Below are positions 6,587 to 64,000 of a stretch of DNA of 64,000 nt, in pieces. Each line of letters starts with the position of its first letter. The first letter of the stretch is position 1. The DNA lies in the NCBI GenBank assembly GCA_002709505.1, contig PARB01000030.1, forward strand, positions 55,816-119,815. The letters run 5' to 3'. Under the pieces are notes generated by a model. The model did no database searches and was not told where the DNA came from. It saw nothing but the letters and a program-made list of their open reading frames with translations. Source of the stretch: Paracoccaceae bacterium. Lineage in GTDB: Bacteria > Pseudomonadota > Alphaproteobacteria > Rhizobiales > Stappiaceae. Position numbers and translations under genes: made by a program.

Positions 6587-7444
6587 ATGGCCGAGTGGTC
6601 GCAGACCTGGAACTGGATCGACGGGCAGTGGCTGGATGGCAATCCGTCGATGATGGGCCCGCGCAGCCATGCATCCTGGCTGGGGTCGAGCGTCTTCGAC
6701 GGTGCGCGCGGTTTTGACGGCCTGACGCCGGATCTGGACCTGCATTGCCAGCGACTGAACGATTCCTGCGTCGCGCTCGGCATGAAGCCGACGATGAAGG
6801 TCGGCGAGATGATCGAGCTTGCCCAAGAGGGCATGGCGAAATTCGCGCCGGGAACGGCCGTCTACATCAAGCCGATGTATTGGGCGGAAGGCGAAGGTCC
6901 CGGCGTGATCGCGCCGGATCCCGACAGCACCCGCTTCTGCATGTGCCTGTTCGAGGCCGCCATGGCCCCGGCCGACACCGCGATCACGCTCACGCTCTCG
7001 CCGTTCCGCAGGCCGACGCTGGAGACCATGCCGGTCAACGCCAAGGCGGGGTGTCTCTACCCCAACAACGCGCGCGCCATCGTCGAGGCCAGGTCGCGCG
7101 GCTTCGACAATGCGATCGTGCTCGACATGCTTGGCAATGTCGCCGAGCTGACCACCGCAAATGTCTTCATGGTGAAGGACGGCGAGGTGCACACCCCGGC
7201 GTGGAACGGCACCTTCCTGAACGGCATCACCCGCCAGCGCGTCATCAAGCTCCTGCGCGATGCGGGAACCGTCGTGCATGAGCGCACGCTCGGCTACGGC
7301 GATTTCCTCGATGCCGACGAGATCTTCTCCACCGGCAACTACTTCAAGGTGGTCCCGGTGAAGCGCATCGAGGACCGCGACATGGAGCCGGGTCCCATGG
7401 CCGCGCGCGCGCGCGAACTCTACTGGGACTTCGCAAAGGGCTGA
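6587..7444 (+). CDS. Branched-chain amino acid aminotransferase-like, PLP fold type IV
   Basis: 285 aa. ATG 6587 is set by AAGGAG seven bases upstream; the track start at 6563 is an in-frame TTG with no SD. Class-IV aminotransferase features are visible: GSSVFDGARGF near residue 30, the Schiff-base Lys in NAKAGCLYPN near residue 150, and the cofactor and substrate segment LGNVAELTTANVFMVKDG. The family transfers amino groups between Leu/Ile/Val and 2-oxoglutarate. It is slightly shorter than IlvE and resembles the alphaproteobacterial 'branched-chain aminotransferase' paralogues, so D-amino-acid or other substrates are possible. Confidence 0.9.
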   Translation: MAEWSQTWNWIDGQWLDGNPSMMGPRSHASWLGSSVFDGARGFDGLTPDLDLHCQRLNDSCVALGMKPTMKVGEMIELAQEGMAKFAPGTAVYIKPMYWAEGEGPGVIAPDPDSTRFCMCLFEAAMAPADTAITLTLSPFRRPTLETMPVNAKAGCLYPNNARAIVEARSRGFDNAIVLDMLGNVAELTTANVFMVKDGEVHTPAWNGTFLNGITRQRVIKLLRDAGTVVHERTLGYGDFLDADEIFSTGNYFKVVPVKRIEDRDMEPGPMAARARELYWDFAKG

Positions 7445-7476
7445 GACGCGGTCTATTCGTCCGGCGTGCGTTTCGA

Positions 7477-8655
7477 TCAGGCGCGCGCCGGGCGCAGCGT
7501 CAGGAGTGCCGCGACCACGAGAAGAGCCGCCGCGCACAGCGACGGCCAGAAGAAGCTTCCGGTCAGGTCGGCGGCATAGCCGGCAAGGGTCGGCCCCAGC
7601 ATCTGCCCCAGCCCGAAGCAGGCGGTCATCATCCCGAGCACCGTCTTCGGCTCGCCGCCCGACAGGCGCCGCGCCTCGACCAGGCCGAGCGAGGTGATGC
7701 CCATGAAGGTGCCGCCGAGGAGAACCGCCGCGAGGACGGCGCCGGCCGCGCCCGGAACCAGCACGCTTGCGGCAACGCCGACCGCCTCCACCGCACAGGC
7801 CAGCGAAAAGGCGCGCATGCCGCCGAGCCGCGCCGACACGCGCCCCCAGATCCAGACCGAGACCGCCGCCGATACGCCGACCGCCGTCCAGGCCGGCGTT
7901 TCGTAGACGGAGAGCGTTTGCGACGCGCGCAGAATACTGGTGAGAAAGGTCGCGGTCACGACGTAGCCGACCCCGAAGAGCGCATAGGCAACGGCAAGCC
8001 GGACCAGCGCCGGGGACGGGCGGGCGATGCGCGCAGCAGGCGCCGGCGCCGCGTCCGCCGCAGATGGACGAGGCTCGACGGCGTCATCGCTCGCAACCAG
8101 GCAGATCCAGGCACCGATGCCCAGCACCCCGGCAAGCGCGCCGGCGCCGATCCATTGCCCCTGCCACGCCGCTCCGCTACGGACAAGCACACCGACCAGA
8201 ACCGCAGACACCGCGATCCCGACACCGACGCCGGCGAAATGCAGGGCGGCAAGGCCCGTCCTGTTCATGCGCGCCAGGCGCTCTAGCACCAGTGTCGAGG
8301 AAAACACGAGAACCCCGGCGCTGGCGATGCCGCCCAGGAAGCGCCAGAGGGCGAGAACCGGCAGCGCCGCATCCATGGCCATGAGGCCGGTGGTCGCCAC
8401 GCTGGCGATGAGGCTTGCGCGAAAGCCGCTGCGCACGGCGGATCCGGCAAGCGACATGGCGGCAAGCGCGCCGACCAGATAGCCGAGGAAATTGGCCGAA
8501 GCGACCATCCCCGCCTCGGACGCACTCAAGGGGATTTCCGCACTCATCGAGGGAAGGATCGGCGTCAGGGCAAAGCGGCCGATCCCCATCGCAACCGCAA
8601 GCGCGCACAGGCCGCCGAGAGCAAGCCGCACGGGCGAACCGCCAGCCGCAGGCAT
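7477..8655 (-). CDS. MFS transporter, YbfB/YjiJ family
   Basis: 392 aa from ATG 8655 with GGAGA about 8 bases upstream; the 62-residue extension in the ORF track is not membrane-like. About 12 hydrophobic segments are evident. The N-terminal ALAVAMGIGRFALTPILPSM is the hallmark of the YbfB/YjiJ subfamily (PF06779). MFS proteins of this group are inner-membrane carriers, mostly of unknown substrate and often annotated as sugar or drug exporters. The gene is convergent with the aminotransferase (32 bases between stops). Confidence 0.92.
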   Translation of the reverse strand: MPAAGGSPVRLALGGLCALAVAMGIGRFALTPILPSMSAEIPLSASEAGMVASANFLGYLVGALAAMSLAGSAVRSGFRASLIASVATTGLMAMDAALPVLALWRFLGGIASAGVLVFSSTLVLERLARMNRTGLAALHFAGVGVGIAVSAVLVGVLVRSGAAWQGQWIGAGALAGVLGIGAWICLVASDDAVEPRPSAADAAPAPAARIARPSPALVRLAVAYALFGVGYVVTATFLTSILRASQTLSVYETPAWTAVGVSAAVSVWIWGRVSARLGGMRAFSLACAVEAVGVAASVLVPGAAGAVLAAVLLGGTFMGITSLGLVEARRLSGGEPKTVLGMMTACFGLGQMLGPTLAGYAADLTGSFFWPSLCAAALLVVAALLTLRPARA

Positions 8656-50855: not shown

Positions 50856-51509
50856 TCAGGCAACGAGCGCGTAGAGAGGATCGGTGGGCACTGTCTTTTC
50901 GAGAACGCTTCCGGTGATCCCGCTTGCCTCCCGCAGCCCGTCGATCATCGCTTCGTCTGTTTTGAACAGCCCCGCGTAGGTCATCACCCGACCGAACCGC
51001 ATCGGGGTTCCGATCGTCTCGGCCTTGCAACGCGCCCGCTGAAAAAGCCGCGCCATCGTCGCGTCATACACTGAGACAATCTGACGAAGACGGATCAGCG
51101 ATCCGATTTCCGCCATTCCGAGGAGAAGCTCGGCGGTCACTTCATTGACCGCACCGGCTCTCCTGGCCTTGCAGGCATAATCCGGATCGATCGAGAACCG
51201 CGAACTCTCCCAGATCAACGGATCTGCAATTGTCAGATCGTCCGGGAGCAGTCCCGAAAACACGTCTCGCAACATGTTCGGCCCCGTTGTCGGCAGCAAA
51301 CGAACGCTGCCCCTCACATCGCCGTTCACTGGATCGATCGACAGCATATAGAGCGGATTCTGATCGTCGAACTCGTCGATCTCCCACCCGTCCTCGATGC
51401 GAACGTCCCACCGCAACCGATGATGGAACACCTCGGCACGAATGGTATGCATCCGATCGATTTCATACATATGACGCAACCGATCACAACCCTGAATAAG
51501 TCTGATCAT
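50856..51509 (-). CDS. luxI: LuxI-family acyl-homoserine-lactone synthase
   Basis: 217 aa, ATG 51509 with GGGGAG six bases upstream. Family invariants are visible: RAEVFHHRLRWDV (Arg, Phe, Trp near residues 24-35), an acidic cluster (DEFDDQN) before PLYML, GSVRLLPTTGPNML (Arg near 70) and WESSRFSID (Glu, Arg near 100). The enzyme makes an AHL from SAM and an acyl-ACP or acyl-CoA in the cytoplasm. It lies 111 bases downstream of luxR on the same strand, and a lux-box-like dyad with a plausible -10 lies between them. Base composition is lower in GC than the chromosome to the left. Confidence 0.93.
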   Translation of the reverse strand: MIRLIQGCDRLRHMYEIDRMHTIRAEVFHHRLRWDVRIEDGWEIDEFDDQNPLYMLSIDPVNGDVRGSVRLLPTTGPNMLRDVFSGLLPDDLTIADPLIWESSRFSIDPDYACKARRAGAVNEVTAELLLGMAEIGSLIRLRQIVSVYDATMARLFQRARCKAETIGTPMRFGRVMTYAGLFKTDEAMIDGLREASGITGSVLEKTVPTDPLYALVA

Positions 51510-51564
51510 AACAAGCTCCCCTGTTGGAACGACGGAATCATGACAAGGGAAAGCGCGCCGATAT

Positions 51565-51584
51565 ACTCCGTAAATTTACCGAAT
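51565..51584 (-). promoter_or_regulatory. Candidate lux box in front of luxI
   Basis: The dyad CCGTAAATTTACCG (core GTAAATTTAC perfect) is centred 65 bases upstream of the luxI start. A -10-like CATGAT lies about 35 bases downstream of the centre (51537-51542), close to the spacing expected for a LuxR site overlapping the -35 position. Confidence 0.5.
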
Positions 51585-51620
51585 AGACAATTTTAACTAA
51601 ATAAAACAAGCATCTATATT

Positions 51621-52337
51621 TCAAATTAGCCTCAAACGCAGCGCTCTTGTTACGGAATGCGTTGTATTCACGGCATTGAGCTTCAGACGTGAGAACTCCA
51701 TGTACGATTGAACCGTTCCACGGCGAATTCCCAGAATGATCGCAATCTCCTCATACGTTTTCCCCTCAGAAGCCCATTTCAAACACTCGATCTCTCGCTT
51801 CGTAAGGCGGGGAATAACTTCGCTAACTCGTTCAACTCTCAAGATCATTTCATGAACGACATTCGCGATAAGCTGGAAATCACGCATATAATGTGTTCGC
51901 AATCTGATCCACTCTCGATCTGTTTCCTCGCTGGTAATCGACAGCATGGCTGCCTCTCCGTTTACACCCCGGATTGGCATCGTCATGCCTTGCCTACCAA
52001 CACCAAACTCCTGGGCTTCGCCAAAGAATGTTTTCAGAGGGCCACTCGTCTTGTCGAAAGTCGACCAATCGGTCGGGAGCATGCGTTGCAACCCCGCACT
52101 CAAAACAGGGTCGATGGAGACATAGTCATTCTTCTTGTAATGCTGAACCCATGCATCATCATACGTTACGGCAAGATAGGGCTCCCGAGCAGTCAACTCA
52201 GGAATTCGCGCAGCAAAGTACACTACGTTCTTCAATCCGTAGGCGGCCCTGATCCGATCAAGAAGCGCCATTCCTTCATTTGGGTTGGCTATCGTGTTGA
52301 GCTGATCAATCACCTCTGAGAAGAACACATTTTTCAT
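51621..52337 (-). CDS. luxR: LuxR-family quorum-sensing regulator (autoinducer-binding domain plus HTH)
   Basis: 237 aa from ATG 52337 (MKNVFFSEVIDQL); a GTG seven codons earlier is possible. The N-terminal autoinducer-binding domain carries the typical pocket order (YDDAWVQHYKKNDYVSIDPVL: Trp, Tyr, Asp-Pro) and GMTMPIRG...AMLSIT. The C-terminal HTH is LTKREIECLKWASEGKTYEEIAIILGIRRGTVQSYMEFSRLKLNAVNTTHSVTRAL. It is paired with the downstream luxI. A 59-aa gene missed by the ORF track lies 50 bases upstream on the same strand. Confidence 0.94.
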   Translation of the reverse strand: MKNVFFSEVIDQLNTIANPNEGMALLDRIRAAYGLKNVVYFAARIPELTAREPYLAVTYDDAWVQHYKKNDYVSIDPVLSAGLQRMLPTDWSTFDKTSGPLKTFFGEAQEFGVGRQGMTMPIRGVNGEAAMLSITSEETDREWIRLRTHYMRDFQLIANVVHEMILRVERVSEVIPRLTKREIECLKWASEGKTYEEIAIILGIRRGTVQSYMEFSRLKLNAVNTTHSVTRALRLRLI

Positions 52338-52387
52338 TCTCACCCCCACCAGCTTCACCTAGGAGTGGAAAATTTAGCACTATCGCG

Positions 52388-54028: not shown

Positions 54029-54811
54029 TCACCAAGCCGTCCAGCCACCATCGACAGGCAACGTAGCCCCATTGATGTAACTTGCCGTTGGGGACGCGAG
54101 AAACGCGACAACACCGCCGATCTCGGATGCTTTCCCAATGCGCCCCAACGGGATCTTCTTCTCAAGACTTGAGATCAAATCGGGCGAACGTCTCTGAGTT
54201 TCTGGCGAGGGGAAAGCGCCTGGGGTCAGAACATTGAAGCGAATGCCCTCCGGCCCGAATTCACAGGCTGCATAACGAGTCCATTGGATGAGTGCCGCCT
54301 TGGCTGCGCCGTAGAAAGCGGCGTTTGCTCCATGTTTGTCCGGATAGACCCGAAGATCGGGACTTACGACGCCATACATGGAGGCGATGTTGACGACGGC
54401 AGCATCACCTCGCTTAGCTCTTGCGGCGCGCAGGTTCGGTAATGCACGCCTCACCAGCCTTTGCGCTGCGACGACCGCCACCTCATAACTTTCTCGGTAA
54501 CCGTCATCATCTGCAACCTCAACTGCTCCAGCCCCCCCCGCATAGGCGTTGTTGACCAAGATATCGAGGGGCTCTGCTCCAAGGCGCCCAAAAAATTCAT
54601 CGACCTGATCGACGTGGGTGATGTCGAAAGCGGCAGGAAAGGCCATGAACCCCTCCTTTGCAAAGTCCTCGGCAAGACGAGTAACCGTGGCCAAGTCCCT
54701 TCCGTTCAAATAAACCCCGGCACCGGCCGCCATCAGCTCTCGCGCAATACTCAGGCCAAAATAGCCAGTGGCGCCGGTTACAAGTGCCGTCTTGTCAGCA
54801 AGTGAAAACAT
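54029..54811 (-). CDS. SDR-family oxidoreductase in glycan operon
   Basis: 260 aa. Classical SDR: nucleotide motif TGATGYFGLSIA near residue 12, NNAYAG near 87, catalytic Ser in NIASMYG, YxxxK in FYGAAKAAL, and C-terminal INGATLPVDGGW. It is an NAD(P)-dependent oxidoreductase, probably of a sugar or sugar-nucleotide intermediate given the neighbours. It is the last gene of the minus-strand operon, 15 bases after the aldo/keto reductase. SDRs of this subtype accompany nonulosonate and SpsF-type genes in flagellin- or capsule-glycosylation clusters. Confidence 0.92.
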   Translation of the reverse strand: MFSLADKTALVTGATGYFGLSIARELMAAGAGVYLNGRDLATVTRLAEDFAKEGFMAFPAAFDITHVDQVDEFFGRLGAEPLDILVNNAYAGGAGAVEVADDDGYRESYEVAVVAAQRLVRRALPNLRAARAKRGDAAVVNIASMYGVVSPDLRVYPDKHGANAAFYGAAKAALIQWTRYAACEFGPEGIRFNVLTPGAFPSPETQRRSPDLISSLEKKIPLGRIGKASEIGGVVAFLASPTASYINGATLPVDGGWTAW

Positions 54812-54826: not shown

Positions 54827-55756
54827 CTACGCCCGCAGCCATCTAGCGGGGTCCAGGGTTTCTGTCCCAAGGTGCGGTCGTCCCGCCCGTATCCGGACAA
54901 GATCTCCCGAGGTCAAAGGCGCCGTCCGGCAGTTTTGCAGGTTCTCACGCATCTGGTCTACGGTTTCGGCCCCAACCACAAGACCATCGACCCAATCCTG
55001 TGCCCGGCCCCAGGCGAGGCACAGATCCTGCACATTCCGCCGCCGCCCCGCCCGAACCTCCGACAACAGCCAGCTTCGAACATTCCCTCCATTGGCAACA
55101 TGTGCGCGGTGCCAGTGGTCTGGCTTATCGGAAAGGAACAGCCCCTGCAGCAAGGAACTGCGCCCGTGGATGGTCAACGGCCGTTGTTTCCTGATACGCT
55201 GAACCTCCGGTAGCGCTCTGTCCCATCGATGATCGAGAATATTGACCGGCAACTGGATATGTCGGACGCAATCCTCAGAAAGAGCCTGCAAAAGTTCTTC
55301 CGGCGACTGCACCGACACACCAAACGCGGAAATACCACCAGCCTCAAGTTCGCTGTGCATGATGTCTGCAACTAGGCTGCCTTCCAGGCGATAATCTTCC
55401 CAGCGGTGCAGAAGGACCGCGTCGAGCCTGTGTCGTTTTAGGGACCGGCGCGACTCGGTGAGGCTGGAGCGCACGAGATCTGCCAGCTTAGAGGCATCTC
55501 TCCCCGACCCTTCATGCGTAAGGCGAAGCGGCAGCAACTTGGTTGCCAGTTTGACCGGCCAACGGCCGATAGCTTCAAGCGCCGTCCCGATGGCTTCCTC
55601 GCTTCCCGGATAGGCTCGCGCCGTATCTATCCAGCCGACACCAGAATCCCTAGCAAGACACAGGATCCTGCATACCGTCTCTGGAACCGGCGCTCCGGTC
55701 GCGTTGGCAATGCCATAGGGCGCGCCGAACTGGGCCCCACCGACTACAAGTTTCAT
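54827..55756 (-). CDS. Aldo/keto reductase in glycan operon
   Basis: 309 aa. AKR barrel: VGGAQFGAPYGIAN, WIDTARAYPGSEEAIG (catalytic Asp and Tyr), Lys in KLATKLLPL and LLHRWEDYRLEG (His). The subtype with the opening GGAQFGxxYGIAN is that found in surface-polysaccharide gene clusters next to SpsE/NeuB- and SpsF-like genes. It would reduce a sugar carbonyl with NADPH. It starts two bases after the end of the NeuB-SpsF fusion gene, so it is translationally coupled. Confidence 0.92.
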   Translation of the reverse strand: MKLVVGGAQFGAPYGIANATGAPVPETVCRILCLARDSGVGWIDTARAYPGSEEAIGTALEAIGRWPVKLATKLLPLRLTHEGSGRDASKLADLVRSSLTESRRSLKRHRLDAVLLHRWEDYRLEGSLVADIMHSELEAGGISAFGVSVQSPEELLQALSEDCVRHIQLPVNILDHRWDRALPEVQRIRKQRPLTIHGRSSLLQGLFLSDKPDHWHRAHVANGGNVRSWLLSEVRAGRRRNVQDLCLAWGRAQDWVDGLVVGAETVDQMRENLQNCRTAPLTSGDLVRIRAGRPHLGTETLDPARWLRA

Positions 55757-55758
55757 TG

Positions 55759-57582
55759 CTATAGCCCCTGCTCTGGGCGCACGGTCTCCCCGACCCTGCC
55801 TTTGGGAAGACGCGTCTTGAGTTTCAACTCCTGGATAAGATCCTCATCCGACTGATACTTCACAAGCATCCTGGTGTTGGAGCCGGCAAGATCCGGCTGC
55901 CGGTCCAGTATCGAGAACACATTTTCCAGAGTGTGCGGAAGCCCAGCTTGCCCAAGCTGGTCAAACAGCGCCACGAACAGATCGTAGTCTTCCTGGTAAT
56001 CCATCGTGAGCCGATAGTCCCTGACAAGGTGTGGCGGCAGCGTGACGACATTCACGGAAAACACGTCGGGATTGTTTTCGAAATACCAGTTCATATATTC
56101 CGACATCGGCGCACCCCCGAGCCCTTCGAAGACCCGGCGCATTGCTTCGACGTTGATGATATGGGCACCTGTTCCCACCGCATCATTTTCCGCACGGGTA
56201 AAGTCGGCACCCGTTCTAAAATGGCTTTCCAGGAGATAGTCCGCGATTTCCGGAGAAATGACGGGATTGTCCCCGGTCGCACGCACGATTACATCAATCC
56301 CCTCGTCGCGGGCAAGATCGAGATAACGCTTCATCACATCGTCCGGGTCTCCTTGGAAAAACCCGCAGCCCATTTTTCGAGTGGCCGTCTCCAGAACAGC
56401 ATCCTGATTAAGGGTCGACGTCGCAAGATAAACCGCATCAACCCGTCGGATCCGCTGGCAGTTTTCAATGCAGCGTTCGATCATCGGCTGGCCGCCGAGT
56501 GGTAGCAGGGCCTTATTCTCCAGGCGCGAGGATTTCATCCGGCAGGCGATAACGGCCGCGATCCGCGCGGTTCTGAAGGAGGATTTAAAGAAAGCATCAC
56601 CCCGACCATGGGTACGCGCCAGAACTTGGCCGTCGCCCTGCAGATCACGGATCTGGTCAGGTGCAAGCGGGAAGCCGCCCTGACGACGAAAAATCAAATC
56701 CCCGGCGCCCACGAGCGAACCCTCGCGCTTATTCCTTGCACAGCAAGGCAGCAGACGGCTTTTGGTCAAATAGGCTTCTTCGGCACGGTTGATGAACTCC
56801 GACGAGAACGACTGCACCACCGCATGCAGATGCTGCTCCATCTGACGGACTTCCAAGGGTTCCAGCGCAGACATTGCGTCATACTCCGTCTCCGCCCGGG
56901 AAAGACAGACATGTTTCTCCACGCTTCGACATCCTAGCGCGCAAGCGATCGCCGGCAAGACCAAGGCATATGGATCGGTGGCACTGATGTGGTCTGCAAT
57001 GCCCAGATCAATGTCAGGAAACGCGGCCCGCAACACGGCAATCTTGTTGAGCTGGCAGTCTTCGATAGCAGTAGGATAGCTTTGAAAGCCGATCTGCAAC
57101 GTTGTGTTGGTCCTCAAGAAGCCAACGTCGGCGAGTCTATCCAGAATGCGTTCGATCTCACTGATTTCAAATCCGGAGACATTTGCAATCAGGCGTGTGC
57201 CGGCGAGATCGAACGCCTGCAGCAAATTTAGTACCTCTTCATTCTGGAGCATCGACGCCTGCAGCTTTACCCCGAATACCCTGTCCCTATTATCTAGGAA
57301 GACGGCAATGCAGTTGGCGTCCGCCATTTCGAGCCAGACATCGTAAAAGTGCGACGCACGCGCGATGATCCGGCCCCAGGTTTCGCGCGGTATCTCAAGT
57401 TTCCGGTAGATGTCGAAAAACTCAAACGATGGCGTCGCCAGCGTCTCCGCTGAAATAGGGTGGAACTTTAACCCTTTACGCTGGGTTTCTTCGCTGGGAG
57501 CCAGATGATCCATCAGGACGAACAGCCTGTCCGGATCGCCCGCGTGAACACTGGCGGTCTCAAAAATAAGGTAAGGACTCAT
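55759..57582 (-). CDS. Fused NeuB-like synthase, SAF domain and SpsF/CMP-sugar cytidylyltransferase
   Basis: 607 aa. Residues about 1-260 are NeuB/SpsE-like, condensing a sugar with PEP to a 2-keto-3-deoxy acid: KFHPISAETLATPSFEFFDIYRKLEI, GFQSYPTAIEDCQLNKIAVL, GIADHISATDP and VEKHVCLSR. Residues about 285-335 are a SAF/antifreeze-like domain. Residues about 340-600 are an SpsF/NeuA-like cytidylyltransferase (AVIACRMKSSRLENKALLPLGGQPMIE, VRATGDNPVISPE, DYRLTMDYQEDYDLF). One polypeptide could therefore make and CMP-activate a nonulosonate- or Kdo-type acid. The ATG overlaps the upstream stop (57579-57582). The NeuB part is shorter and more divergent than canonical NeuB. Confidence 0.87.
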   Translation of the reverse strand: MSPYLIFETASVHAGDPDRLFVLMDHLAPSEETQRKGLKFHPISAETLATPSFEFFDIYRKLEIPRETWGRIIARASHFYDVWLEMADANCIAVFLDNRDRVFGVKLQASMLQNEEVLNLLQAFDLAGTRLIANVSGFEISEIERILDRLADVGFLRTNTTLQIGFQSYPTAIEDCQLNKIAVLRAAFPDIDLGIADHISATDPYALVLPAIACALGCRSVEKHVCLSRAETEYDAMSALEPLEVRQMEQHLHAVVQSFSSEFINRAEEAYLTKSRLLPCCARNKREGSLVGAGDLIFRRQGGFPLAPDQIRDLQGDGQVLARTHGRGDAFFKSSFRTARIAAVIACRMKSSRLENKALLPLGGQPMIERCIENCQRIRRVDAVYLATSTLNQDAVLETATRKMGCGFFQGDPDDVMKRYLDLARDEGIDVIVRATGDNPVISPEIADYLLESHFRTGADFTRAENDAVGTGAHIINVEAMRRVFEGLGGAPMSEYMNWYFENNPDVFSVNVVTLPPHLVRDYRLTMDYQEDYDLFVALFDQLGQAGLPHTLENVFSILDRQPDLAGSNTRMLVKYQSDEDLIQELKLKTRLPKGRVGETVRPEQGL

Positions 57583-60500
57583 CCCGAAAAGTTCCTTGCA
57601 ACGTGCCCCTCAACCGGCTTCGGATTCTGCTTTGACCAGTTTTCCACCTCCTCAACCAGCGCAGCGACAATCGATGACTTGTCTCCCGGGTCACCTCTCA
57701 GGAGGCGAACACACTCGTACCAAACATCCGAGCGCTCCGGTCCGATCTCCCGCCACCAAGTTTCTCCGTGATTGCTGAACAGCAGCCCCGGCGTTCCGGT
57801 CGCACCAGCGAGTTCAATGACGGCGGTACCCGGGCCAATGACGAGATCCAGATTGGACATCAGCGCGGCAACGCTATCGAAATCGTTGTACTGGTCGATA
57901 TCCTCGAGATTAATAATCTTACCCGGGTAGCGTTCACGGACCCAGTCTAGTTCTTCCTCGCAATCATCGTATTGAAGGTTCACGAAGGTAATGTCTTTGA
58001 GGGCAAACAGGGGTTCCAGTTCCTCGATGTCGAGATAGTGTACGTTGCGCATCGCATTTGTGAGTTGGCTGCGCCAGCTTAATCCTACCAATCTAGTGTT
58101 CTTGGGCAGTCGCTCGCGGAATGCCGAGGCCTTTACCGGATCAGGCTTCAGATAAGGCGTGCGTTTAAAGTCACTATAATCCTTGCGGAAATGCCAGATA
58201 ATTTCGGTAAAAAGCATAATTTTGTCTGCTTTTTCTACCGCTTCATGGCCATTGTTATCCAAAACCCGCCGTAAATCTGCGCCGGGTAGACGGTCAAATT
58301 CTCGATGCGGGAACTCGGCGCTGAACTCACGGGTTCTCCGCACCGGCGTCAGCCGGACTTGCGGGAAGGACCTGGAAAGAAGCGGCAGCAGTCGAGGGTC
58401 GCAGCACAAGCTAAAGGTGTCGTAGCCAAACCTATCACCGATCTCCGACAATAAAACGCTGTAGCGTATTTCCTCCGCTGGGCCGAAATCGCAGATAAGA
58501 AGGAGATCCTCCATCTGGAGCTCTTCTGAATTCTGGTATTTCTCCGCGCCATAATAAGCGATGAGCCGGTCTCGCATAGCGGTGTTGAGAAAGCAGCGGA
58601 AACCCCTTTCGATCTGCCGCAGCCCGAAGAAGATCGGCATGACCGGCCCTTCTAGCGGCAAGTCGATTTGGAGGTCTACACTCTCTAGGAAGTGCTGATG
58701 AGCAGTCTCAAAATGCCCCAAAATCTTTAGCAGGCGAAGCAGTTCCGTGTAGGTTGCCTTGCAGGGATCGCGAGCGACCGCCTGCTCCATAACCTGCACG
58801 GCACGCTGATAGTCGCCCACGCCCGCGAGGGCACGGGAAAAGGCCACCAGCGCGGTGTCGCTCCTGTCTCCCATTTCAATCAGTTCGGTCATGATTGTCA
58901 GGGCTTTTTGAGGTCGGCTCAGTTCCAGCCAGGCATTGGCTAGCCTAACCGACCGGGAGCCATCCATCGCAAGAATTGCATGGGACAGCGCAGCAGCATT
59001 TGACCGACCGAGAAATTCATTCAATCGAGCAAGCGTACGATTGACACGATCCGGGTTGAGAACCAGCTGAAGCGAAAAGGATTCTAGGATGTCTTCTAGC
59101 GTCTCATCGCCAGGCGTTGTTGACAAACACTCCACGTGATAGTTCACGCCAGCATTGTTGTGCCCTGATATATTCGCATACTTGAGCATGTCGGACAGGA
59201 GCCGCACAGAAGTTGTGTCGAAGGTCAGATCGGCGATCTTGATAGCAGGTAAAAGCAGGCCTGAATGGAGGTTCCCATTCAGCATCAGAGTGAGAACATG
59301 GTCCAGCGCCTTCTCATAATCCCTATGTTCGACAGCTCTTTCGCACATTGAATAAAGCAGCGCGACTTGTTCAAGGGTTTGAGGCAAAGGCTCGGAGGGT
59401 GCAGGTCCCCCGTCGTCATTGTCATCTGCAGCCAGGCCCGTGCGATTGTACTGAGCCTCCATCAGCTCGAACGATTTAGGGACTTCCTTGAGTTGCTCCA
59501 ACAGCCAGGCCCATTGGATGGCATCAGTATTCTTCGGACGAATTTTCCCGAGCCGTGTCAGAAAGTCGGCGTAGATATCGGGCGCGATGAACTGTCGGAC
59601 TTTGTTCAGGAATCTATTGCGTGCGTCGTCCGAATTCAGAACACCGCAAACCGCGTGAAGAAGGACAGACTGGTAGATCCTGCAACCAGGCGCCTTGAGC
59701 GTGCGGTGAAACGGAGCCTGGCAGATGAGCTCGTCAAAGTTCTCATGTGCCTGGCCCTTTTTCGCGAAAAGGAACGCCGGCCAATAGCTTGACTGAACTG
59801 TCGATTTCAGAACGTCCTTGCGCGGAGTCTCGTTGACCAGACTCTTGTGCGTCTTCTGGGTGATTACGATCCTGTCTGCAGATATGCGGCGGATCGCGGC
59901 CATCAAGCCGATATAGCTGTCGTCCAATGCGCCGAGGTATTTGGCATAAATAAGATAGGACCCTGCAAACAATTCAGCGAGGGAGAGCTGTCTCTTCCGC
60001 CGCAAAAGTGTAGCGCGGTCGTCGGTTAAGCCCCAGCCGGCATAGAACGGCGCGCCGAAAACCGTTACCTTCTTGCCTCTGAGCAGAGCCTCCAGACCGG
60101 ACAGAGACGTAACCACATATACATGATCAATTCCGTCGAGAAATTGGGGTAATCCTTCTTCCGGCGAGGCCAGACGGCATATTTTCTGTACCCTCGAGAG
60201 CCGCGTCTTACTCTTGTGCAGACCCTTATAGATCTCTGGATGCGGTCGGTAGATTATCTCGCTGGTCGGATTCTCGAAGGCTGCAATCTCGATGATGTCT
60301 TCCATGGTCCAGCCATCAACATTGCCCTTGCGCATGGACATGTCTTTGTCTACCTGGCCGATCACCGCAACACGCTTTTTGCCCGTGAACTTTTTGAACG
60401 GATCATTCTCGGTGGTGAGCGGCGGATTGTACTTGGAAATCCCAAGACGGCAAAGAAGTGAGATCAACTCTTCCGCCTGTTGCAGTAACTTCGGATTTGA

Positions 60501-61115
60501 CTGGAAATCGTAGTGATTTAGGACATCCTCTAAATCCGTTTGTGCCGAATGGTCATAGTGCAGAACGCCAGAGTAATCGAACACAAGAGAATACGGTGTC
60601 GTGTGGATGGCACCCAATTGGGCGGAGCGGACAAATCCATCTTCTACACGAGCATAGGCAATGTTCTTTTTCTTCAAATACGACAAAAGAAAATAAGGTT
60701 CATTATAACCCCAAATATATACGATTTTTGGCTTCTCAATCATCGCTCGAATAACGCCGGCGAAAAAGAAATAATTTTTCTTCATCGGCGCAAAAGCGCA
60801 TCTGTAATCGGAAAGGAAGTCTGCTACAAAACCAAATTTCCAGTCATTAAAACCAACCAACAGGGCGATGGGCTTCTTCCCACCTGGCTCCTTCCAGCTT
60901 TCCCCGACCAAAAACATCTCCTCAAGCCCGACCGGCGCTGGAGACAGTTCATGCGGATTGATCAGCGTGTAAGGGTACTCGTACTTGTCAGTTTTTCCCT
61001 GCCTTCTGATACGAAGGATGGCGCTCCGCAGGAACGTCTTGATCCGTTCTGGCTCGCCAAACTTATCTTGGAGGGAGGTGCGAAAGAACTTCTGAATGAC
61101 GCTCAGGTCTGCCAT
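57579..61115 (-). CDS. KpsC-like capsule glycosyltransferase fused to TPRs and a C-terminal GT-B-like domain
   Basis: 1178 aa. Residues about 80-400 are a capsule-synthesis (KpsC/WcbA, PF05159-like) domain: [10 protein letters not shown] near 157, YRPHPE at 289-294 and [30 protein letters not shown] near 337-366, typical of beta-Kdo transferases. Residues about 580-840 form TPR-like helices ([33 protein letters not shown]). Residues about 860-1150 resemble the TPR-linked GT-B module of glycan or protein glycosyltransferases ([54 protein letters not shown]). No transmembrane segment. It is the first gene of the operon that also makes the presumed CMP-sugar. Cytoplasmic transfer to a lipid or a protein such as flagellin is possible. 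Confidence 0.87.
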   Translation of the reverse strand: [1178 protein letters not shown]

Positions 61116-61850
61116 GGCAGGATCACAATATCTTTCTAACTAGGGAGAAAGCATTGGCTGCTTTCATCAATTTGACCGGCGCTACGTCCAGCGACAGAAG
61201 CGGTTGTAAAGCATTTTGAGCGGCCCTAGTCCTTCGGCGCATCCTTCCACTATAGCCCGTGCTTTAGCATGGAGTGGCACCCGAAGCGACTCGGCGGTCA
61301 TCCGCGCACCATCCCGTGAGCCTCGTAGAGAGCGGCTCGCTCTTGGCCAAATAGGCTTGCGAATGCAGAAACAAATCAAGCATGGCAGACTCCCATACCA
61401 TCCTGGATCACACTCCGCCATTCAATACAAATCAACAGGGCCCAAGCCTAGCGACAACAACACCGATTTCACCTCTGTCGCAATCCTGGAATTCGCTGAT
61501 CGGCATAGGAACAATTAGCATCTTATCGCTCCGGGTAAGCCGATACAGAATGCGTTCATTGAATCATTTGACGGCAGGCTCAGGGACGATAGGCTCAACC
61601 TGTTCCCAAGCCGATCCGATTCCCGTATCGCCTTAACGTAGTGGCGAGCTGATTAAAACGCCAAACGCCCACACTCGCGGCTAGGCTGGCCCACCCTAAC
61701 TGAATACGCCAAGACCTTTACCCGGCGCCGGGTCCATGGGCGACGCCCAATGGCCAGATCCTCGCCAATCCCCTTTCTTCCATCACGCTCAACCGGGCCA
61801 ACACAACGCCCGGAGTCTACGTCACACCAAATATAAAGAGGAGGGCAACA
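61116..61850. other. Gene-free spacer between glycan operon and prophage lysis genes
   Basis: About 735 bases. ORFs at 61182-61421 (-) and 61216-61518 (+) lack SD sites and family features and may be remnants. It must hold the promoter of the glycan operon (minus strand) but no clear element was seen. A perfect 14-bp palindrome ACCCGGCGCCGGGT lies at 61720-61733. The prophage boundary is probably in this spacer. Confidence 0.45.
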
Positions 61851-62180
61851 TCACCCCGCCCTATCACCACCGCCTCCCCCATTCCGCGTAAGCACCTGAT
61901 CGATCCGGCGGTTGAGTTCCGCCTGCCCCTGCCGAATGTCCATCAAGAGCTCACGTAACGCATCTTGAGACCGGTCGTGATCGTCGCGACGCACATACTC
62001 ATCACGAACGCGGTTTATCCGCTCGTGGAGTCGGTCATCACCTTCGCGCGAATGGCGAAGCGCATCCTCGTCTCCTTTTCGGATAGTTGCCAGCATGTGA
62101 CGATCCCGCATCAGCAACCCTCCAATGACGGTTGCAATACCGATCGCTACGGTGACAATCCACTTAAGATCATCTCCCAT
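61851..62180 (-). CDS. Membrane-anchored coiled-coil protein, holin-like phage protein
   Basis: 109 aa from ATG 62180 (MGDDLKWIVTVAIGIATVIGGLLM), with GGGGAC six bases upstream; its first base overlaps the o-spanin stop (TGATG). One N-terminal transmembrane helix is followed by a long charged helical region (GDEDALRHSREGDDRLHERINRVRDEY ... LLMDIRQGQAELNRRIDQVL) and a glycine-rich end. Similar proteins in alphaproteobacterial prophages are annotated as holin-associated or hypothetical. It is the last gene of the lysis block. A pinholin or accessory role is possible. Confidence 0.7.
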   Translation of the reverse strand: MGDDLKWIVTVAIGIATVIGGLLMRDRHMLATIRKGDEDALRHSREGDDRLHERINRVRDEYVRRDDHDRSQDALRELLMDIRQGQAELNRRIDQVLTRNGGGGGDRAG

Positions 62181-62452
62181 CACTGTCCCCGCTCCCCATG
62201 CCGCCGGCATTCCGGCCCGGTCCACACCTGCGCGTTGCACAGCCCCGCCGCCGTGACATCGATCTTGCGTTGATCCCGCGCCGTCGCGCCGCGCGCGCCG
62301 ATCAGATCGGTGCCGACGACGACGCGGATCGTCTCACGGATCTCGGCTTTCGCACCGACCGGTGCCGTGGTCATACAACCCGCCATCGTCAAGGCAGCGC
62401 CGAATAGCGTCGCGGCCGTCACGAGCCGCGTTCTTGAGGTCTTCCATGTCAT
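62180..62452 (-). CDS. o-spanin-like (Rz1) small lipoprotein
   Basis: 90 aa from ATG 62452 (MTWKTSRTRLVTAATLFGAALTMAGCMTTA), with GGAG seven bases upstream. The lipobox (TMAGC) gives a lipidated Cys near residue 26, and the mature part is short. The gene overlaps the i-spanin gene by 119 bases in another frame, the classic Rz/Rz1 arrangement. By family it would form the outer-membrane half of a spanin that fuses the membranes at phage lysis. Confidence 0.75.
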   Translation of the reverse strand: MTWKTSRTRLVTAATLFGAALTMAGCMTTAPVGAKAEIRETIRVVVGTDLIGARGATARDQRKIDVTAAGLCNAQVWTGPECRRHGERGQ

Positions 62453-62633
62453 CTTTCGTCTCCTGCGCAGCCTCTTCGACAGCCTCGTTTCCCACCCGCC
62501 ATTCGGCAATCTCGACGTAAGCCCACAGCGCCAGCATCCCGGCGAGCACCAGCGCCGGCCAGCGCAACGCCGGCACCTTCCAGACCGTCGCCAGGACCGT
62601 CAGCAGCGCGCTCACGTCCAGCCCTCGAACCAC
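62334..62633 (-). CDS. i-spanin-like (Rz) protein
   Basis: 99 aa. One N-terminal transmembrane segment (WPALVLAGMLALWAYVEIA) is followed by a charged helical periplasmic part (VEEAAQETKDDMEDLKNAARDGRDAIRRCLDDG), the expected Rz layout. It follows the endolysin gene, overlapping it by 22 bases, and its 3' part overlaps the lipoprotein gene. Sequence is not close to lambda Rz, so the call rests on topology, position and overlap. Confidence 0.75.
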   Translation of the reverse strand: MVRGLDVSALLTVLATVWKVPALRWPALVLAGMLALWAYVEIAEWRVGNEAVEEAAQETKDDMEDLKNAARDGRDAIRRCLDDGGLYDHGTGRCESRDP

Positions 62634-63520
62634 CGCCGCACCGGCGCCGGCAGGCTGTCCCGGATCCGACCCCGGTTCGCCCAGGCGAGATAGGCGAGCA
62701 GGATCACGACGCCGGTGGTGCCGAGCGCATAGATGATCGTGGTCCAGTCGATGCCGACGGTCTCCTCGAGCGCCACGCCGGCAGCTCCGACGCCGCCGAC
62801 GACGCCCGTACCGCCCTTAGCCGCCGTCTTGCGCTCAAGCGCCCGCTTTGCCGTGGCGCGCGTTGCCGGGCCGAAAATGCCGTCAACGACCAGCGGCGGG
62901 TGGTGCGCCCGCTGAAACGCCTTCGTCGCGGCGCGCATGTCGCTGACGTCGTGCCCGAGCCGCCGCAGCAGCTCCGCATCCTCATGCGTCTGGTCGATGG
63001 AATCGGTCTTGCCGAGATCGCGCGGCGCCGGGCCGACGCCGATGTACTCGCCGGTCTCGAGCAGATGCGCCTCTTCCTTCCGCCGGCGCACCAGTCCGGG
63101 CAGACGGCGACCGCCGGCCGTGTTGTAGTTGTCGCGGAGGATCGCGGCCGCGCGCTGCACGTTGCCCGCCTTCAGCGCCTGCGCCCACCGCCATTTCAGC
63201 GCGCCGGGCCCAAGGTTATAGGTGACCGAACAAGCCGCATCGAACTGGTACTGCGGCAGCGGGCCGAAGGCTTGGCGGACCGCCGCGCCATACTCCTCGG
63301 CGATCAGCGCGCGCAACACCTGCAGCGCGCCATCCTTGGTGATCCGATCGCCCATCCGCAGGTCGCGGCCGTAGCGACCGCGCCACCATGCGGCGAAGAC
63401 CCGGCTGCGCATGGTGAAGCCGTAGCCGATGGTGAGCACACCGACCGGATCCCGGTAGGCGCTGGACACAAAGCCTTCGTGCCCGGCGATGAACGCCAGG
63501 CCGCTTTCGCTGATTTTCAT
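62612..63520 (-). CDS. Phage endolysin: GH24 muramidase with peptidoglycan-binding domain and C-terminal TM
   Basis: 302 aa, ATG 63520. Residues about 1-150 are GH24 (T4-type lysozyme): catalytic Glu in AGHEGFVSSAYRDPVGVLTIGYGFT, with Asp and Thr of the E-D-T triad, then FDAACSVTYNLGPGALKWRW. Residues about 180-240 are a PG_binding_1-like repeat (LLRRLGHDVSDMRAATKAFQRAHHPPLVVDGIFGPATRATAKRAL). A C-terminal transmembrane helix (TTIIYALGTTGVVILLAYLAWA) precedes a basic tail. It cleaves murein for host lysis. Membrane anchoring at the C-terminus is less usual than an N-terminal signal anchor. Confidence 0.92.
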   Translation of the reverse strand: MKISESGLAFIAGHEGFVSSAYRDPVGVLTIGYGFTMRSRVFAAWWRGRYGRDLRMGDRITKDGALQVLRALIAEEYGAAVRQAFGPLPQYQFDAACSVTYNLGPGALKWRWAQALKAGNVQRAAAILRDNYNTAGGRRLPGLVRRRKEEAHLLETGEYIGVGPAPRDLGKTDSIDQTHEDAELLRRLGHDVSDMRAATKAFQRAHHPPLVVDGIFGPATRATAKRALERKTAAKGGTGVVGGVGAAGVALEETVGIDWTTIIYALGTTGVVILLAYLAWANRGRIRDSLPAPVRRWFEGWT

Positions 63521-63543
63521 GGGAACGCCCTTTCGTCAGGCAC

Positions 63544-63567
63544 AAAAAAAGCCGCCGGTAAGGCAGC
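63544..63567 (-). terminator. Rho-independent terminator upstream of the endolysin gene
   Basis: On the minus strand GCTGCC-TTACC-GGCGGC (one G-U pair) is followed by seven T. It lies between the 91-aa phage gene and the endolysin gene, so lysis genes probably have their own promoter or depend on readthrough. Confidence 0.8.
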
Positions 63568-63595
63568 TCATCGTGGTCGGTGATGTGTGGTCCGC

Positions 63596-63871
63596 TCAGC
63601 GCGCGGGCTTGCCCGCCTTGCCGGCCTTGCCGGCCATCGGCTCGCCGGACACCTCGCCCCGCGCCTCGGCAAGTGTGGCCTCCAACTTGGCGACCTTCTT
63701 TTTCAGCTCGGCGATCTGCTCCTCGGCCACGACCTTCTGCGCCTCGGCCACGGCGAGCGCGCCAGCCGTGTTCTGCGCGTACGATCGGATGAGGGTATCC
63801 ATTGAATGCCCCGCTTGGTACCCGGCCTGAATCCGCAGCGACTGGAGGTCAATCTGGTTCGTGTCGGTCAT
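63596..63871 (-). CDS. Small coiled-coil phage protein (91 aa)
   Basis: 91 aa from ATG 63871 (MTDTNQIDLQSLRIQAGYQAGHSMDTLI), with GAGGAC six bases upstream; the track start is 27 codons earlier. The middle is a coiled coil (AVAEAQKVVAEEQIAELKKKVAKLEATLAEA) and the tail is Lys/Gly/Ala-rich. No family recognised. It lies between the preceding phage gene (31 bases away) and the endolysin, so a structural or lysis-timing role cannot be distinguished. Confidence 0.7.
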   Translation of the reverse strand: MTDTNQIDLQSLRIQAGYQAGHSMDTLIRSYAQNTAGALAVAEAQKVVAEEQIAELKKKVAKLEATLAEARGEVSGEPMAGKAGKAGKPAR

Positions 63872-63902
63872 TGTCTGTCCTCTGTGTGGTTCGAGGTGTC
63901 TG

Positions 63903-64000
63903 TCAGGCCCAGGGCGCGGCGCGCGCGACCGGCGGGTTTTTCCGGACCTCAATCTGCTCAGCGATGATGGCCTTATGCTCGTCGACGTCGAGCGTGCCGG
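63903..64000 (-). CDS. C-terminal end of a further phage gene (partial)
   Basis: The minus-strand frame is open from the window edge to a TGA at 63903. It gives 31 residues (GTLDVDEHKAIIAEQIEVRK then NPPVARAAPWA), too few for a family call. It has the same orientation as the lysis block and is separated from the next gene by 31 bases. Confidence 0.55.
   Translation of the reverse strand, partial: GTLDVDEHKAIIAEQIEVRKNPPVARAAPWA

Follow-up and report, generated by a model that had tools for sequence, protein, structure and literature searches.

The window analysed here, a stretch of 64,000 nucleotides from the genome of a Paracoccaceae bacterium, contains an operon on the reverse strand in which the gene for a NeuB-SAF-SpsF fusion protein is accompanied by genes for a glycosyltransferase, an aldo/keto reductase (AKR) and a short-chain dehydrogenase (SDR). 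The features are as follows, by position in the window:

57579..61115, (-) strand: P0002, a 1178-aa glycosyltransferase encoded immediately before the fusion gene; it combines a KpsC-type GT with TPRs and a further GT-B-like domain
59892..60752, (-) strand: KpsC-type (PF05159) glycosyltransferase domain of P0002, with a QXXXD nucleophile motif at residues 254-258
55759..57582, (-) strand: P0001, the NeuB-SAF-SpsF fusion protein, 607 aa
56809..57582, (-) strand: NeuB-type (beta/alpha)8 barrel of P0001, residues ~1-258, with Glu8, Lys39, Lys106, His198, Glu222, His224 and Asp235
56569..56775, (-) strand: SAF (antifreeze-like) domain of P0001, residues ~270-338, with a conserved Arg300 equivalent to Arg314 of N. 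meningitidis NeuB
55789..56568, (-) strand: SpsF-type cytidylyltransferase domain of P0001, residues 339-598, with Arg348, Ser351, Arg353, Lys357 and the metal-binding Asp438 and Asp528
54827..55756, (-) strand: P0003, aldo/keto reductase, separated from the fusion gene by a 2-nt gap, with DTARAY, ATK and LLHR at the AKR tetrad positions
54029..54811, (-) strand: P0004, short-chain dehydrogenase, 15 nt after the AKR gene

The genes for P0002 and the fusion protein overlap by 4 nt (ATGA). The KpsC-type domain of P0002 matched structure 6mgb at 5e-41, and its QXXXD motif, which carries the nucleophile in KpsC (PMC10148158), reads QVDKD. The C-terminal part of P0002 was tentatively placed as GT9-like by fold only, in a model with a mean pLDDT of 72.6. 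P0003 is 36% identical to the AKR beside a Reyranella fusion gene and P0004 is 48% identical to the SDR at that locus. KpsC relatives that use CMP-Kdo or transfer pseudaminic acid are known (PMC10148158, PMC12887879), among them a retaining pseudaminyltransferase (PMC12887879). The AKR, the SDR and the KpsC-type/TPR glycosyltransferase fit a CMP-nonulosonate pathway. Elsewhere in the window, adjacent LuxI-like and LuxR-like genes were recognised by eye at 50856-52358, and phage-type genes including an endolysin occupy 61116-63952, at the contig end beside the operon, with transposase-like remnants between (also by eye).

The reading frame of P0001 runs from ATG to stop through 607 codons with no internal stop. 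The first-pass annotation had proposed a NeuB, SAF and SpsF order in a single chain and had named a domain search and a structure prediction as means of checking it. The search placed both outer domains above the curated Pfam cut-offs (NeuB, PF03102, residues 119-259, 3.2e-15; CTP_transf_3, PF02348, residues 342-539, 6.5e-23), although Pfam missed the SAF domain when queried with P0001 alone. It was matched instead through a profile of the fusion family covering solved NeuB/PseI structures through their C-terminal domain: profile positions 3-330 match residues 16-348 of PseI 8h2c, almost the whole of that protein and into its C-terminal domain, and the same stretch aligns with the solved structures of N. 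meningitidis NeuB and B. subtilis SpsE, while positions 331-570 align with the cytidylyltransferase 6oew. The AlphaFold2 model of P0001 (mean pLDDT 90.7) contains all eight strands of the barrel, the SAF domain and the nucleotidyltransferase. In this model the nucleotidyltransferase begins a few residues past the end of the SAF domain with no spare linker, and confidence is high and continuous across the joint. The best Foldseek matches to the model include 1xuu, 2wqp, 3g8r, 8h2c and 6oew, with approximately 352 aligned columns to both 1xuu (348 residues) and 8h2c. Pfam, profile, model and Foldseek agree in placing P0001 in the NeuB family with SAF, on the barrel and the antifreeze-like domain, and the proposed order is borne out by the uninterrupted frame, Pfam, the family profile and the model. 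The synthase half had also been described as shortened and divergent. The former description does not hold, as all eight barrel strands were modelled and about 350 columns align to solved NeuB/PseI structures; the latter is correct, with 16-18% identity to PseI 8h2c and NeuB 1xuu in structural alignment.

Lys53, Ser154, His236 and Asp247 (N. meningitidis numbers) are known ligand-pocket sites of the NeuB family. Among the positions compared, Glu25, Lys53, Lys129, His215, Glu234, His236, Asp247 and Arg314 (N. meningitidis numbers) were present in 18 of 18 fusions; the counterparts kept in P0001 are the metal ligands His198, His224 and Glu222, together with Lys39, Lys106, Glu8, Asp235 and the SAF residue Arg300. 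Tyr186 was found in 17 of the 18, the remaining fusion having Phe. Several further positions of the ligand pocket, most of them taken from a study of N. meningitidis NeuB (PMC6795526), are replaced in P0001: Gln55 by His41, Thr110 by Glu85, Phe112 by Ala87, Asn184 by Gln167, Ser213 by Ala196 and Ser154 by Asn. In every fusion compared (n=18) the Thr110 position is Asp or Glu, as aligned on the D-V-F/T-L-F sequence pattern, and the Asn184 position is Gln; the latter position also varies between Asn, Ser and Ala in canonical rows. Four unfused proteins (L003, L068, L069 and L073) share the acidic residue at 110 and Gln at 184. Loss of the PEP- or metal-binding residues had been named beforehand as a result that would count against the synthase assignment. 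The metal ligands, the catalytic residues and the SAF arginine were retained, but several other residues of the pocket are replaced, so that for PEP binding the outcome of this check is mixed. These replacements could alter or weaken binding of PEP; judged on residues, they lower the probability that the substrate is the usual one and leave membership of the NeuB family standing. A NeuB-like protein with Lys53, Lys129 and Glu234 all replaced, a possible pseudoenzyme, was seen at 6792-7796 of locus L081, where its gene clusters with SDR, SpsF, AKR and class III aminotransferase-like genes.

The fused rows of a 66-domain NeuB tree require four state changes against a mean of approximately 16 after shuffling. 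They fall into two groups, one of seven rows, all fused and including that of the window, and one of fourteen rows, eleven of them fused. Both groups lie outside the set holding the canonical NeuB/PseI rows, and a few unfused relatives join the fusions apart from that set. The tree is unrooted and fits either a single origin of the fusion followed by losses or several origins. P0001 scored 57.8 bits against the TIGR03569 cut-off of 399.65 and 52 bits against the TIGR03586 cut-off of 340.25. Its assignment as a canonical sialic or pseudaminic acid synthase was rejected, being far below both equivalog cut-offs and outside the canonical clade.

The SpsF half retains the R-x-x-S-x-R-x-x-x-K nucleotide-binding motif and two aspartates, aligned with KdsB and 6oew; Arg348, Ser351, Arg353, Lys357, Asp438 and Asp528 are invariant in the alignment of 18 fusions. 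The counterparts of Asp438 and Asp528 in KdsB-like sequences are the GD and VDTPEDL aspartates, which bind the metals in KdsB. Similarity to KdsB is weak (34.5 bits against a cut-off of 155.2), and the C-terminal 'LEQLRALE' segment of the aligned KdsB sequences is absent from the SpsF domain of P0001. Identification of the domain as KdsB, the CMP-Kdo synthetase, was rejected on these two grounds.

A scan of species-representative genomes and relatives yielded 17 further fusions, each a complete single ORF of 581-612 aa, with approximately 23-47% identity to P0001, in Alphaproteobacteria, Bacillota, Bacteroidota, Planctomycetota, Nitrospirota and others. The three nearest to P0001, all alphaproteobacterial, are 46-47% identical to it; two of these (L022 and L052) are Reyranella-like and close to each other. 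Fusions of approximately 23-36% identity came from Flavobacteriales, Paenibacillus, Dethiobacter, Sporosarcina, Omnitrophota, Desulfurivibrio, Planctomycetota, Nitrospirota, Rhodospirillaceae, Pelagibacteraceae and one more alphaproteobacterium. A further copy (L063) runs off its contig. Because 17 other complete copies exist in other genomes, the fusion is real and is spread over several lineages, the copy in the window being one of many.

Several variants of the arrangement were observed. On a single-cell contig of Prochlorococcus (L071, 4248-6929), the NeuB-SpsF protein carries an extra C-terminal glycosyltransferase-like part, GT2-type by eye, and extends past the contig end with at least 894 aa. 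A Desulforamulus copy (L064, 9977-11747) is split into several frames by decay or sequencing error. NeuB and SpsF are encoded by separate neighbouring genes in Hadarchaeota, some Alphaproteobacteria and a Rhizobium megaplasmid; on the megaplasmid, a two-piece tblastn match resolved into two genes, for a NeuB of 338 aa and an SpsF of 225 aa, overlapping by 4 nt. This was the one two-piece match on plasmids; tblastn returned no full-length match to the fusion in either phages or plasmids, and an origin of the fusion in either was rejected on this result. A description of a NeuB-cytidylyltransferase fusion was not found in the open-access literature searched, which is a weak negative.

Pathway genes were found beside several of the fusions. 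A 20-kb stretch of a Reyranella-like genome (G418) carries canonical NeuB, PseB, PseC, the fusion, an AKR, PseG and an SDR, and in Pinisolibacter PseB and PseC are followed by the fusion and then by capsule-export-like genes (the export genes recognised by eye). An AKR gene was seen at 10 of the 67 loci with an SpsF match, many of which are short; the association is not general. An AKR-SpsF fusion was found in L083. At nine loci of the second fused group (L058, L059, L060, L061, L063, L065, L066, L067 and L071; Pfam was run on seven of them), the fusion gene is immediately preceded or overlapped by a radical SAM/SPASM gene. Together with the joining of SpsF-like and radical SAM/SPASM parts in spiro-SPASM proteins, these neighbours suggest that lineages differ in how they modify the CMP sugar or its precursor.

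Further cytidylyltransferases were sought with PF02348 in 14 genomes. In Sporosarcina (G520) and Dethiobacter (G519), the only CTP_transf_3 match besides the fusion was a weak one in a frame of 476-477 aa, the length of GlmU. The former genome has PseB, PseC, PseG and canonical NeuB all over the cut-off; the latter has PseC, PseG and canonical NeuB, with a PseB match below the cut-off. Since there is no other cytidylyltransferase match in the two genomes save the GlmU-length frame, the SpsF half very likely performs CMP activation there, to judge from gene content. The Reyranella-like genome and Pinisolibacter (G516) each have one further PF02348 match, taken as KdsB-like. Most fusion genomes hold another full-length NeuB. 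Those without one are the window's genome, two Pelagibacteraceae (with short NeuB-like frames only) and Prochlorococcus, several of these assemblies being small or incomplete. The second NeuB allows two readings: the fused NeuB half may produce an additional acid, or the synthase of the main route may be another enzyme. The wide distribution of the fusion, its place outside the canonical NeuB clade and the usual co-occurrence of a canonical NeuB/PseI had not been foreseen in the first-pass annotation.

The window's own genome is a draft of 107 contigs, estimated as 85% complete, and absences from it are weak evidence. Its one NeuB is that of the fusion, and besides the fusion it has one other CTP_transf_3 protein, which is KdsB-like. 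PseB was found over the cut-off on contig C55, beside capsule-export-like genes; PseC over the cut-off, PseG and a second NeuB were not found in this 85%-complete assembly. The pseB gene (L095, 12518-14001) has an unusual C-terminus, with the capsule-export-like genes upstream and, directly after it, integrase-like frames on the opposite strand and phage genes. It may be conjectured that the end of the window's contig and C55 are one locus split by a prophage; no 3' remnant of pseB and no sequence shared with C55 were found in the window.

P0001 is most readily interpreted as a bifunctional nonulosonate synthase/CMP-synthetase with an altered substrate, to which, on the sequence data, we would assign a probability of roughly 0.6. 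In a swapped dimer of the NeuB type, the barrel of one subunit would be complemented by the SAF domain of the other and would condense PEP with an amino-deoxy hexose in the presence of a divalent metal to give a 2-keto sugar acid. The linkerless SpsF domain would then activate that acid with CTP, yielding a CMP sugar. Adjustment of the sugar's oxidation state or stereochemistry would probably fall to the neighbouring AKR and SDR, and P0002, the KpsC-type/TPR glycosyltransferase, is the putative user of the CMP sugar. The single chain, the folds, the metal and catalytic residues kept in both halves, the operon and the place in the tree are direct results. The pocket replacements, the other NeuB in most fusion genomes and the failure to find a source of the hexose in the window's genome count against the bifunctional reading. 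The identity of the product (nonulosonate, Kdo variant or other) had been left open from the outset, a caution supported here; given the altered pocket and the position of the NeuB domain outside the canonical clade, ordinary Neu5Ac, Pse5Ac7Ac or Leg5Ac7Ac is probably not what the enzyme makes. More tentatively, and with some doubt, the fusions and their unfused relatives may constitute a separate NeuB-like class, acidic at Thr110 and with Gln at Asn184, that makes and activates, within a single chain, an acid other than Neu5Ac, Pse or Leg, usually beside a canonical synthase and with modification by AKR/SDR or radical SAM/SPASM enzymes. In either case P0001 represents a recurring domain fusion in a pathway of known type, and its synthase half is divergent.

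An explanation that accounts for the second NeuB in most fusion genomes is that the SpsF half alone is a pathway enzyme, replacing PseF for an acid supplied by a separate canonical PseI, while the NeuB half is a binding, regulatory or dimerising module or catalyses another reaction. Sporosarcina and Dethiobacter, with PseC, PseG, canonical NeuB and only a GlmU-length frame as other cytidylyltransferase match, conform to it, as do the changes at pocket positions 110, 154, 184 and 213. Retention of the eight catalytic and metal positions of NeuB-SAF in all 18 fusions, across several phyla, would however be unexpected in a non-catalytic module, and the window's genome shows no other NeuB; we regard this explanation as unlikely, though deserving of some weight. 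An artefact, whether a missed stop, a frameshift or a chimeric contig, is suggested only by the fragmented and incomplete state of the draft genome. A stop or frameshift between the parts had been anticipated as the result that would overturn the single-chain claim, yet none occurs in the 607 codons, the 17 other complete ORFs have the same order and the model is continuous and confident at the joint. For the family, a frameshift or truncated NeuB is refuted by the relatives and the model, and for the window's copy an artefact is so improbable as to be negligible.

It is also conceivable that P0001 makes some ulosonate other than a nonulosonate, such as a Kdo-like octulosonate, for the adjoining KpsC-type glycosyltransferase. 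The KpsC-type domain of P0002 with its QXXXD motif would suit such a sugar, and the SpsF domain is weakly similar to KdsB models. NeuB-SAF enzymes make nonulosonates, whereas Kdo-8-phosphate is made by KdsA, which is without SAF. Moreover, the window's genome already has a KdsB-like CTP_transf_3 protein, the SpsF domain is without the KdsB insertion, relatives of the AKR and SDR occur in the Reyranella pseudaminate-type cluster and KpsC relatives transferring pseudaminic acid exist. A Kdo-like product is thus quite improbable, and the bifunctional nonulosonate synthase/CMP-synthetase is retained as the preferred reading.

Nonulosonates coat bacterial surfaces and flagellins, and the type of synthase is used to predict the sugar of a strain. 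If the bifunctional reading is correct, a widespread branch far below the equivalog models, with its own activating enzyme, would mean that some clusters make an unlisted or second sugar, and a single-chain synthase/CMP-synthetase would be a convenient enzyme for the production of CMP sugars. The synthase and activation steps had been said to be normally performed by separate enzymes, and characterised pathways do use two proteins, for example SpsE and SpsF of B. subtilis (PMC7439481). In that pathway, which supplies legionaminic acid to the spore crust, a NeuB-SAF synthase is followed by an SpsF cytidylyltransferase as in P0001, where the two are one linkerless chain. B. subtilis spsF mutants produce legionaminic acid that is not placed on the spore (PMC7439481), the phenotype that loss of a CMP-activating step should give. 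The Thr110 and Asn184 positions of SpsE (1vli), read from the profile alignment, look canonical, in contrast to Asp/Glu and Gln in the fusions. PseI 8h2c and N. meningitidis NeuB 1xuu have the barrel and SAF fold and the eight key residues in common with P0001, and differ from it at Gln55, Thr110, Ser154, Asn184 and Ser213 and in overall sequence, as the 16-18% identity indicates.

The SpsF domain is joined to other partners elsewhere. In the pseudaminate cluster of Vibrio sp. B9-25K2 it is tied to an AKR, with a dehydrogenase gene following, and the bifunctional protein has been proposed to replace a missing NeuA (PMC7371886); in P0001 the partner is NeuB-SAF and the AKR is the next gene. In spiro-SPASM proteins (TIGR04321), the N-terminal domain of which matches the SpsF domain of P0001 at 6e-11, the SpsF-like part is joined to a radical SAM/SPASM domain rather than to NeuB. 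Finally, Caulobacter FlmG (PMC7591256) combines TPRs with a GT and depends on pseudaminic acid from NeuB; its pathway also includes a cytidylyltransferase-like protein, FlmC. NeuB and FlmC are separate proteins in Caulobacter, and P0002 of the window adds a KpsC-type domain to the TPR and GT combination, its second GT being placed by fold only.
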